Positions 42,036 through 44,542 of a DNA stretch of 64,000 nt are shown here, piece by piece. The number at the start of each line of letters is the position of its first letter. The stretch's first letter is position 1. Source of the DNA: an uncultured Erythrobacter sp. (GTDB lineage Bacteria > Pseudomonadota > Alphaproteobacteria > Sphingomonadales > Sphingomonadaceae); assembly GCA_947502305.1 (NCBI GenBank), contig CANMZA010000001.1:1054001-1118000 (forward strand), given 5' to 3'. The notes under the pieces were generated by a model. The model saw nothing but the letters and a program-made list of their open reading frames with translations. It did no database searches and was not told where the DNA came from. The position numbers were made by a program, and so were the translations under genes.

Positions 42036-42515
42036 TCACTCACAATCGGACAGAGCCTCTGCATCATCAGCCGCCCGATCCAACTTGCGGTAAAAGCAGC
42101 TTGTCGCCCCGGTATGGCAAGTCGGACCAGCAGGAACAGCGCGGATCATCAAGGCGTCTTGATCGCAATCGACCAAAATCTCGTCAACCTTCAGCACGTT
42201 TCCTGATGTCTCCCCCTTCATCCACAAGGATTGGCGTGAGCGAGACCAAAAATGCACAATGCCGGTAGCCCGAGTGCGCTCCAGCGCCTCCGCATTCATA
42301 AACGCCACGACCAAAACATCCTTTGTCGCCGCGTCAGCAACCACAGCCGTCAGCAAGCCGGATGCGTCAAACTTTGGGGCAAAATAGGCACCCTGCTCAC
42401 GTTGCTGAGTCGTGAGGGTCGATGGCTGCGTTGGCTGTGACAAGATTGAGGGACTCCGGGAAAATGGGGCACTTTTGCAGAAAGTTGCCAGGCCATACGG
42501 CAGGCGGTTCGTCAT
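42036..42515 (-). CDS. hisI: Phosphoribosyl-AMP cyclohydrolase
   Basis: Third step of histidine synthesis: opens the purine ring of PR-AMP. The 159-residue protein has KFDASGLLTAVVADAATKD, VVAFMNAEALERT, the FWSRSRQSLWMKGETSGN motif and DCDQDALMIRAVPAGPTCH with the zinc and magnesium ligands. The start is uncertain: ATG at 42515 is used, but the 50 residues before KFDASG look unconserved, and an internal TTG (SQPTQPSTLTT) is possible. It is not near other his genes. Confidence 0.9.
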   Translation of the reverse strand: MTNRLPYGLATFCKSAPFSRSPSILSQPTQPSTLTTQQREQGAYFAPKFDASGLLTAVVADAATKDVLVVAFMNAEALERTRATGIVHFWSRSRQSLWMKGETSGNVLKVDEILVDCDQDALMIRAVPAGPTCHTGATSCFYRKLDRAADDAEALSDCE

Positions 42516-42599
42516 ATGCGACAGTTTGTTGCAGGATAACAACAGAAGGCGAGGAAAATCCACCTAGTTGCTTGTTTACACTTCACCATCGGTAAGAGG

Positions 42600-42846
42600 A
42601 ATGGAACAACGCACCCTAGTGAGTGCGTAAGCGCTCTTCCACCAGACAAAGGCATCTCTAAGATGCCAGGTTCGGGGGTGATTGATCAAAGCTGGACGCG
42701 GGGGTTCAGCGTGATCAATTGAACGATGAGGGATCGGATCCTGATGGCGAAGTTAGGGGGTCGCCATCTGAGCTCTTTAAGAGCGGTTCCAAACCATTTC
42801 GTCACGTGGCGCCCGGGGTTGTAATGACCCCGGGCGTTTCGCTTTT
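42600..42846 (+). ncRNA. Candidate structured small RNA ending in a terminator
   Basis: Six hairpins in a row and no reading frame: (1) GAGTGC/GCGCTC (42621-42636) with a GTAA tetraloop, in competition with ACGCAC/GTGCGT (42609-42628); (2) GGCATCT/AGATGCC (42651-42667); (3) a two-part stem ATTGATCA/TGATCAAT with GCTGGAC/GTTCAGC inside (42681-42719); (4) GATGGCGA/TCGCCATC (42743-42768); (5) GCTCT/AGAGC (42772-42784); (6) the terminator stem. The terminator points to plus-strand transcription, yet no plus-strand gene precedes it. Not RNase P, tmRNA or SRP RNA by their signature sequences. The 5' end and promoter are not defined. Confidence 0.5.
42811..42846 (+). terminator. Rho-independent terminator with no upstream gene on this strand
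   Basis: GCCCGGGGT (42811-42819) pairs with ACCCCGGGC (42827-42835) around TGTAATG, followed by GTTTCGCTTTT. The reverse strand has no T-tract after the stem, so it serves a plus-strand transcript. Confidence 0.8.
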
Positions 42847-42870: not shown

Positions 42871-43719
42871 TTAGGCTTTGTGGCCCGCAGAGAGCTGCGA
42901 AGCGCCGCCCGACTGCTCGCTTTTCCGCGTGCCGGTCCCTTTGCCCATCCCTGCGCCATCCACGACTCTGGCGAAACATGCGATACGCACCGAAACCGCG
43001 CCAGCATCCAGCAAAGCGCGAACGCAGGCATCGCTGGTCGCGCCGCTGGTCAAAACATCATCGACCAAGATAACCTCACGGCCAGCAATCTTTGCCGATT
43101 TCCCCCGCCGCACTTTAATTGCGCCAGTCAGCGCCTCCTTGCGCTCATCTTGCCCAAGTCCGCCAAGGCTGGGTGTACTCTTCACCCGGATCAGCCCATC
43201 GACCAGCAATTCCCCTTTGCCGCGTTTTGCGATTTCACGGGCCAACATCGCTGATTGGTTGAAGCCCCGCCGCCAAATCCGCCAGCGATGCAGCGGCACC
43301 GGGATCAAAAGAGCCGGCCGGGTGTCATCATCATCTGATGGATCGGGAATACGCGCCGCCAAAAGCTGCGCCAGCAAAGGCGCGAGCGCTATCTTTGACC
43401 CGTGTTTGAATGTCAGGATCAACCGGCGGGAGGCATCATCATAAATTGTCGCGGCGATCACCCCGCTATGCGGTGGAGGCTCTATCGAACATGCCGCGCA
43501 ATGGTCTGATTTGGAGGCATAAATCGCGTCCATTGGACGCTGGCACGCCGCACAAGCGGGATCCCCCGGTACCGTCAAATCGCCCCAACATGTCCCGCAA
43601 AGACCGCCCTGCTGCGCGATGGAATCGCCGCATAGCGGGCAGCGCGGCGGGTAAACCAAATCTACGACCGGTTTCAAACCCTCCTTAACGGTGTCTGCGA
43701 GTTGCGCCCTCAGCCCCAT
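42871..43719 (-). CDS. comF: ComF-family phosphoribosyltransferase-like protein
   Basis: A 282-residue protein with an N-terminal zinc-binding segment (YPPRCPLCGD, GLCGTCW, ACAACQRP, HCAACS) and a C-terminal PRTase fold with the PRPP motif VILVDDVLTSGATSDACV. ComF takes part in DNA uptake in transformable bacteria and is widely conserved otherwise. ATG at 43719 is chosen because the zinc domain starts there; the frame stays open across the divergent gene but that part is not conserved. No other com genes here. Confidence 0.9.
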   Translation of the reverse strand: MGLRAQLADTVKEGLKPVVDLVYPPRCPLCGDSIAQQGGLCGTCWGDLTVPGDPACAACQRPMDAIYASKSDHCAACSIEPPPHSGVIAATIYDDASRRLILTFKHGSKIALAPLLAQLLAARIPDPSDDDDTRPALLIPVPLHRWRIWRRGFNQSAMLAREIAKRGKGELLVDGLIRVKSTPSLGGLGQDERKEALTGAIKVRRGKSAKIAGREVILVDDVLTSGATSDACVRALLDAGAVSVRIACFARVVDGAGMGKGTGTRKSEQSGGASQLSAGHKA

Positions 43720-43774
43720 AATGATCTGTGTCGCATGGCTTGCACTGCCGTGGCAAGCGCGGCAGGGGGGCGCC

Positions 43775-44542
43775 ATGCAAGAGAACGCCGTCCCCAACAT
43801 CTTTTCCGAATCCCGCAGGGTAAACCGCTGGCATCGGTCGCGCAGGCGGCAAGGTGTGGTGCTCGATCCCGCGCGCTTTGTTTGGGACGATGCGGCCGAG
43901 GATATGATCGAGCGTTTGTTATTCTTGCGCCACGAACCTGACGTCTCGCTGGTCCCTGACGAGGCAGGCGGCGAGATTGACGCGCTGCTCTTAAAGCATG
44001 GCGGCACGGTGGATCGCCGCGCTTGGATCGATCTTGAAAACCCGTTTGCCAGCGCGGAATATGATTTTATCGGATTGGCGGAGCATATTGGCAGCGTGAA
44101 CGATCTGCCCGGTGCGCTCATTCATCTTCACAGCGCGCTGAAGCCGGGCGGGCTTGCAATTGTCAGTTTCATCGGCGGCGCGAGTCTGCCGCGCCTGCGC
44201 AGTGCGATGCTGGCCGCTGATGATGACCGTCCCGCGGCGCGCATTCATCCGATGGTCGATCCGCGCGCCGCGCCGATGCTGTTGCAACGCGCCGGTTGGA
44301 AGGACCCCGTCGTAGACACGCACACACTGACCGTTCGCTATTCCTCGCTAGGCCAGCTTGTTTCTGATCTGCGGGATCAGGGGCTCACCAGCGCGCTGTC
44401 CGATAGCGCATCGCCGCTTGGCAAAGCCGCCCTCAGCCGTGCAAATGCGGCATTTATGCAGCACGCTGATGCCGACGGCAAAGTCGCAGAGACCTTTGAG
44501 ATCATCACCCTTACCGGGCGCAGATCGCTCGCCGGGACCTAG
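43775..44542 (+). CDS. SAM-dependent methyltransferase domain protein (BioC/NDUFAF5-like)
   Basis: A 255-residue class I methyltransferase-like protein. It starts FSESRRVNRWHRSRRRQG as in the BioC/NDUFAF5-like group, but the glycine-rich SAM loop is poorly conserved; DLENPFASAEYDFIGLAEHI and LPGALIHLHSALKPGGLAIVSFIGG show the later strands. AGGGGGG lies 6 bases before the ATG at 43775. Divergent from comF, as seen often in alphaproteobacteria. Substrate unknown; activity is not certain. Confidence 0.75.
   Translation: MQENAVPNIFSESRRVNRWHRSRRRQGVVLDPARFVWDDAAEDMIERLLFLRHEPDVSLVPDEAGGEIDALLLKHGGTVDRRAWIDLENPFASAEYDFIGLAEHIGSVNDLPGALIHLHSALKPGGLAIVSFIGGASLPRLRSAMLAADDDRPAARIHPMVDPRAAPMLLQRAGWKDPVVDTHTLTVRYSSLGQLVSDLRDQGLTSALSDSASPLGKAALSRANAAFMQHADADGKVAETFEIITLTGRRSLAGT

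Follow-up and report, generated by a model that had tools for sequence, protein, structure and literature searches.

Known RNAs most similar to the hisI-comF element

Sphingomonads are widespread in marine, soil and freshwater habitats and are put to use in breaking down pollutants. Among the structured RNAs described in bacteria, 6S RNA is single-copy, measures about 180-240 nt, has its own gene and forms a long interrupted hairpin. In sponges of the CsrB/RsmZ type, a single structured RNA carries several loops with purine-rich motifs. In Alphaproteobacteria, the suhB / MmgR sRNA (RF00519) has an end resembling an intrinsic terminator, and GsrN is an sRNA of Caulobacter.

The element described here lies between hisI and comF in an Erythrobacter window of 64 kb (the whole stretch of DNA analysed). 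It is comparable to 6S RNA (RF00013) in its size range (about 180-240 nt) and as a structured bacterial RNA that is single-copy and has, as predicted, its own gene, but differs in being multi-branched and in ending with a terminator, and the genome holds a separate 6S candidate. Identity with 6S RNA is therefore unlikely, the one genome match of RF00013 being located at C1:1235184-1235371 and not here. That candidate (L274) scores 44.6 bits, just under the gathering score of 46.4. The suhB sRNA shares an alphaproteobacterial origin and a terminator-like end; in contrast, its 77-position model includes a pyrimidine-rich unpaired stretch, and its one genome match (42.4 bits) is on contig C2, so that identity was rejected as well. 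A role as a sponge for suhB, the RNA with which target pairing was tried, was also discarded, as the predicted duplex (-57.4) is no better than those of shuffled sequences (mean -55.2, sd 3.9; 49 of 200 as good). Like the CsrB/RsmZ sponges, the element has several purine-rich loop motifs; these are, however, GGGG and not A(N)GGA, a motif found in 0, 0, 0, 0 and 2 of 43 sequences for the five hairpin loops. GsrN is likened to it by description, as an alphaproteobacterial sRNA gene.

The sequence-only reading had found no resemblance to RNase P, tmRNA or SRP RNA. Searches bear this out: none of the 4227 families of Rfam 15 matches the 64 kb window at its gathering score, and ARAGORN detects 0 tRNA and 0 tmRNA genes in it. 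Rfam 15 has no match either in 20 other loci totalling 114479 bases, including L224, L229 and L230 (and also L207, a terminator-only match). A lax search of 451 bases yielded eight sub-threshold pieces, five of them over the terminator, with a best E-value of 0.013. In the open-licence literature, as seen through titles and the starts of abstracts, no description was recognised as that of this sphingomonad RNA. On sequence comparison, the element represents a new RNA family, though the kind of gene is a known one. It is absent from Rfam 15, and most of the genomes sampled from its bacterial family, Sphingomonadaceae in the GTDB taxonomy, have a match; with matches in 305 of 397 of them, it would be missed by Rfam-based annotation.

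The locus and its predicted fold

As the sequence-only reading had it, both flanking genes are on the minus strand (Table 1). No plus-strand gene lies downstream of the RNA, which is convergent with comF. Because comF has this convergent orientation at all 57 of the 57 genus loci, a riboswitch or attenuator of a same-strand downstream gene was rejected. The names HisI, LolC/E (the model being silent on which one), ProS, PurF and CtrA are given by NCBIfam or Pfam models above a cut-off; ComF and MerR-type proteins are assigned by Pfam domains, below the NCBIfam cut-off. The ComF/GntX models reach E-values of 1e-23 and 5e-34 with the comF product, below their curated cut-offs, and its homology begins near residue 110-150 in many relatives and at residue 1-2 in others.

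The plus strand of the hisI-comF gap folds at -108.1 kcal/mol, beating 200 of 200 dinucleotide shuffles (z -5.3). Folding of the minus strand is likewise extreme (z -6.6), and hence folding by itself cannot assign the strand. Five hairpins had been announced; they are present, but their number is six when the terminator is included. Perfect stems of 7-8 bp, also predicted earlier, are found as 8 bp stems in 42681-42719, which has in addition an inner stem, and in 42743-42768, with further hairpins at 42651-42667 and 42772-42784. The GNRA (GTAA) hairpin is there together with the rival stem proposed for it, an alternative ACGCAC/GUGCGU pairing. The final terminator was correctly identified, its hairpin (42805-42841) being followed by a short TTTT tract (42843-42846).

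Table 1. Features of the hisI-comF locus (window coordinates)
Feature	Position	Strand	Basis or remark
hisI	42036..42515	-	divergent neighbour; exceeds the NCBIfam cut-off for phosphoribosyl-AMP cyclohydrolase; start codon set by eye
Conserved inverted repeat TTGTTGCAGGATAACAACAG, TGTTG-N8-CAACA, putative operator	42526..42545		57 genus loci
Conserved A-rich block (c)aAAAAt after the inverted repeat	42553..42559		42555-42558 at 1.87-2.0 bits
Putative promoter region: GTTT, invariant CTT (42581-42583), TGGAACAA (42602-42609)	42574..42609	+	conservation; role inferred
5' hairpin GAGUGC-GUAA-GCGCUC, GNRA loop	42621..42636	+	fold; present in part of the relatives
Conserved RNA body	42639..42846	+	basis of covariance model R1
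Stems P1-P3: CACC/GGUG, GAAC/GUUC-type, GGCAUCU/AGAUGCC; GGUUC(A)GGGGG on the 3' side	42640..42680	+	86.0, 84.9 and 88.5% of cells paired
Hairpin P4-P6: AUUGAUCA/UGAUCAAU, inner stem, GCGGGG loop (42698-42703)	42681..42719	+	both-sided changes at every pair
AACGAUGAGGGAU(A/C)GG	42722..42737	+	ACGA 42723-42726 pairs with UCGU 42799-42802 (P7); remainder unpaired in the model
Three-way domain: P8 GGAUCC/GGUUCC; P9 GAUGGCGA/UCGCCAUC, loop AGUUAGGGGG; P10 GCUCU/AGAGC	42736..42790	+	covariation
UUUCGUCACG, putative seed	42797..42806	+	one of the best conserved segments
Intrinsic terminator, 14-pair stem, UUUU	42805..42846	+	fold, terminator scan, helix 11
comF ORF	42871..44121	-	convergent neighbour; ComF/GntX models

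Covariation and strand

The structure, strand and terminator of the RNA, its upstream element, its distribution and its location are all backed by comparison between genomes. Alignment A1 started from 57 genus loci, of which 46 passed a filter at 88% identity and 43 were kept, the length outliers L037, L048 and L054 being left out; in L048, from a genus relative, the body (1300-1477) is about 30 bases shorter (178 against about 203-224). A 61-pair model derived from one of the 43 sequences has 92.8% of its cells paired, compared with 85.0% in shuffles. Changes on both sides are observed at 39 pairs (21.4 in shuffles) and 245 doubly changed cells still pair (72.0 in shuffles); none of 500 shuffles reaches the observed pairing, number of both-sided pairs or number of doubly changed cells. 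When partners are slid by 1-3 columns as a control, pairing drops below 50%. Since the structure was taken from one member, the percentage paired is favoured; the double changes measured against shuffles are not. Both-sided changes concern all eight pairs of P9 and all six of both P8 and P6. The GAAC/GUUC stem has none among the 43 sequences, but shows them at three of its four pairs in a wider set of 38. In that set (model R2), 90.7% of cells are paired and 357 cells are doubly changed (104.5 in shuffles); 24 of its sequences had no part in model R1, and the alignment of all 38 was fitted to that model.

The compensatory changes that the sequence-only reading had suggested looking for are thus far above both shuffles and slid controls. 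Outside the terminator, G-U pairs outnumber A-C combinations by 156 to 35 (296 to 35 with the terminator), an excess that favours the plus strand as the RNA. Compensatory change, this asymmetry and the terminator together support the earlier proposal of an intergenic plus-strand small RNA. Sequence comparison confirms that 42639-42846 (plus strand) encodes a structured RNA, conserved and ending in an intrinsic terminator.

Conserved parts of the RNA

The 5' tip is the weak part, with low sequence conservation; its GNRA hairpin, counted with at least four pairs, is present in 29 of 57 relatives and in 1 of 57 reversed controls. Stems P8, P9 and P10 have 94.2, 94.8 and 93.0% of cells paired, and 17 of 18 pairs in these stems change on both sides. 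The P9 loop has GGGG in 43 of 43 sequences, and the P6 loop in 36 of 43, one subclade missing it. P7 is 99.4% paired and almost invariant, with a few G-U/U-G changes in the broader set, and is unproven because it scarcely varies. In the single-sequence ensemble, the segment 42722..42737 is just of intermediate accessibility, and the first ~8 bases of UUUCGUCACG are mostly unpaired. The columns of the latter are largely invariant in the 43-sequence alignment and the motif is kept in the 38-sequence consensus. Conservation falls just beyond the terminator in the 57 genus loci. An anti-Shine-Dalgarno mimicry was also considered for Erythrobacter, where AGGGGGUGAU is complementary to the 16S tail, and was rejected, as more distant relatives, inspected by eye, do not retain the extension.

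Distribution of the hisI-comF form

By blastn, the element is detected in 57 of 61 same-genus genomes (its own included) and in 0 of 39 genomes from other families of the order. The check across relatives that had been suggested for the hisI-comF gap gave a uniform picture, all 57 genus loci carrying the element between both genes and on the opposite strand. The other four genus genomes, drafts of 80-440 contigs that are 70-94% complete, have no credible model match. A pattern scan of titled genomes returned at least 118 stretches, 105 with both neighbours on the expected strand, 10 with one (for the most part near a border of the retrieved sequence) and 3 with none; among the matches listed with a genus name, most belong to Erythrobacter, Qipengyuania, Porphyrobacter, Altererythrobacter, Pontixanthobacter, Citromicrobium and relatives.

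Model R1 also matches other genera of the bacterial family. Among 47 distant loci hand-picked from its matches, 34 have hisI and comF nearby, 2 have comF only and 11 have neither. Model R2, built from 38 chosen loci (A3; the remaining hits of that search were left out), matches 153 of 397 family genomes and 44 of 96 genera at E<=1e-6, and hisI and comF are present at 14 of 14 further R2 loci checked. In 385 genomes drawn from the class, R2 has four matches at E<=1e-4, all within the family. At two loci of one genus (L220 and L222, g42), hisI was not found at its place and the RNA still adjoins comF; in L220 the order is a MerR-family gene, the RNA and comF, which argues that the RNA is independent of hisI.

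A terminator following a CtrA-type gene (L253, C2:796016-796216) resembles that of the RNA and is picked up by the covariance model as a false match (E 6e-4). A second copy in the genome was accordingly rejected, the 25.4-bit match on C2 being the end of this response-regulator gene and its terminator. Because a like match in genome G021 has an E-value as low as 7e-5, weak model hits needed other evidence to be counted as members. As E-values come from a shortened calibration and this terminator-only match (R1) scores so well, reliance is placed on values below 1e-6, together with neighbours where these were checked.

A shorter form beside a lolC/E-type gene

A LolC/E-type gene lies on the opposite strand at all 11 loci devoid of hisI and comF; at three of them, proS is interposed. 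With 20 more fetched, a lolC/E-type gene is present at 30 of 31 loci, the exception (L312) looking terminator-only. The RNA found there, as exemplified by L224 and L303, is shorter and divergent from the lolC/E-type gene or from the proS before it. By eye, its motifs follow the same order as in the window RNA: a GGUUCgGGG-type segment, AAGGGGG, GACGAG-UCGUCACG, and a GCGCCCGGG terminator. It appears to lack the three-way domain P8-P10, where much of the covariation seen in the hisI-comF form is located. A small open frame was considered for the shorter form and rejected by eye, looking open in L228 and being shifted in L306.

Model R3 was built from 18 of the 31 fetched loci (A6), leaving out one genus-like group misaligned by MAFFT and the weak or atypical L226, L250, L252 and L312; its 20 pairs are all in the terminator and one hairpin. 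At E<=1e-6, it matches 157 of 397 family genomes and 41 of 96 genera, some near the threshold. Neighbours were checked for the 14 further R2 loci and for the best 30 R3 matches, beside which lie lolC/E in 23, proS in 5 and neither in 2. With R2 and R3 taken together, 305 of the 397 genomes have a match, and these represent 81 of the 96 genera; the other 92 genomes match neither model at E<=1e-6. Almost every matching genome has a single match; G960 is an exception, with two equally scoring ones near either end of one contig. Both models match in five genomes, at the same place in the three that are comparable (G102, G221 and G764).

In nine of nine genomes examined with the hisI-comF form, the 1.5 kb region upstream of the lolC/E-type gene contains no such RNA motif, and in six of these nine, purF starts within ~420 bases of that gene. 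Conversely, purF adjoins hisI in 9 of 15 genomes where the hisI-comF form is not detected, against 0 of 57 genus loci. The simplest reading of these gene orders would be an exchange of divergent partners, hisI-RNA and lolC/E-purF in some genomes, and lolC/E-RNA and hisI-purF in others. The swapped arrangements are visible at loci L258-L273 and L293-L302. The shared motif order, terminator and upstream inverted repeat suggest that the two forms are homologous, one family that moved.

It is improbable, if less so than some alternatives discussed below, that the two forms are unrelated RNAs, alike through a common terminator and chance G-rich motifs. R3 indeed has all its pairs in the terminator and one hairpin, and terminators alone reach 28.8 bits with R1. 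Against this stand the common motif order (by eye), the similar upstream inverted repeat, the swapped neighbours, and a near mutual exclusion of the two models (5 of 305 genomes match both, with the same coordinates in 3 of 5, the comparable ones).

Control region

Between hisI and the RNA, TTGTTGC, ACNACA and the A-rich block are nearly invariant in the 57 loci. At 24 of 26 loci with the lolC-side form, a similar repeat precedes the RNA, whereas 0 of 26 have it downstream. These counts are obtained with a broader pattern, written after viewing the sequences and applied to the 26 orientable loci of 30; a narrow pattern finds 14 of 31. The repeat accompanies the RNA, not hisI, suggesting that it serves the RNA. 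Its use as a regulon marker was discarded, the combined exact pattern occurring once in the whole genome. For the hisI-comF form, no sigma-70 promoter is recognisable, the consensus scan giving one weak site located inside hisI. The lolC/E-side form displays a promoter-like TGACA-N15..19-TA in 25 of 26 loci, compared with 0 of 26 in the downstream control.

Proposed function and alternative readings

With somewhat better than even confidence, the element may be viewed as an independently transcribed structured RNA gene of about 210-240 nt, conserved in the bacterial family, whose product would be a trans-acting regulatory sRNA. Regarding its being a unit of its own, the terminator and gene layout fit, with a promoter-like site clear only in the lolC/E-side form; transcription itself is presumed from these features. 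A DNA-binding regulator would bind the upstream repeat TGTTG-N8-CAACA and thereby set RNA synthesis. The RNA would then fold into a compact core and stop at its own terminator, the U-tract of which is short. Unpaired conserved segments would be left exposed, namely UUAGGGGG in the P9 loop, UUUCGUCAC ahead of the terminator, and perhaps AUGAGGGAU, and could base-pair with mRNAs or other RNAs. Both UUUCGUCAC and the UUAGGGGG loop are among the most conserved segments and are predicted to be mostly unpaired, which favours the trans-acting sRNA and leaves a protein-binding scaffold as the main rival; AUGAGGGAU is intermediate. Conservation is not limited to unpaired segments, as GGUUC and the terminator stem are paired yet equally conserved.

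Such a scaffold or sponge, on which G-rich segments would titrate or organise an RNA-binding protein as in CsrB/RsmZ or 6S RNA, is on the unlikely side but deserves consideration. The recurrence of GGGG runs in the P6 and P9 loops and the compact, family-wide architecture would suit it, as would the retention of a single match, bar one exception, in most sampled genomes, expected of a housekeeping partner. The near absence of AGGA/ANGGA from the hairpin loops and the separate 6S candidate elsewhere in the genome, however, speak against it. An attenuator or riboswitch acting in cis, as a minus-strand leader of hisI, is largely refuted and the least credible of all: the minus strand folds strongly and hisI starts just downstream on it, but the G-U/A-C asymmetry favours the plus strand, the terminator points the opposite way, the RNA persists at the two loci where hisI was not found nearby, and the related form adjoins a lolC/E-type gene. 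Hardly more plausible is an antisense or 3' regulator of comF, acting by terminator readthrough into the convergent gene. The RNA is convergent with comF in all genus loci and still adjoins it where hisI is not found; yet the 11 loci of the other form keep the core motifs with no comF within ~3 kb, and conservation drops just past the terminator.

A further reading, put forward quite tentatively and with more doubt than belief, is that of a housekeeping-class sphingomonad RNA, structured, near-universal and single-copy, which would work with a dedicated partner or act globally. It would have been kept, together with its own upstream control element, through a rearrangement that swapped the divergent partners of hisI and the lolC/E-type gene, the RNA and purF. 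Retention of the RNA by most sampled species of the family, seemingly once per genome, suggests that it is probably something these bacteria rely on. The two forms constitute a natural test of which parts are essential, the shorter one apparently doing without P8-P10.
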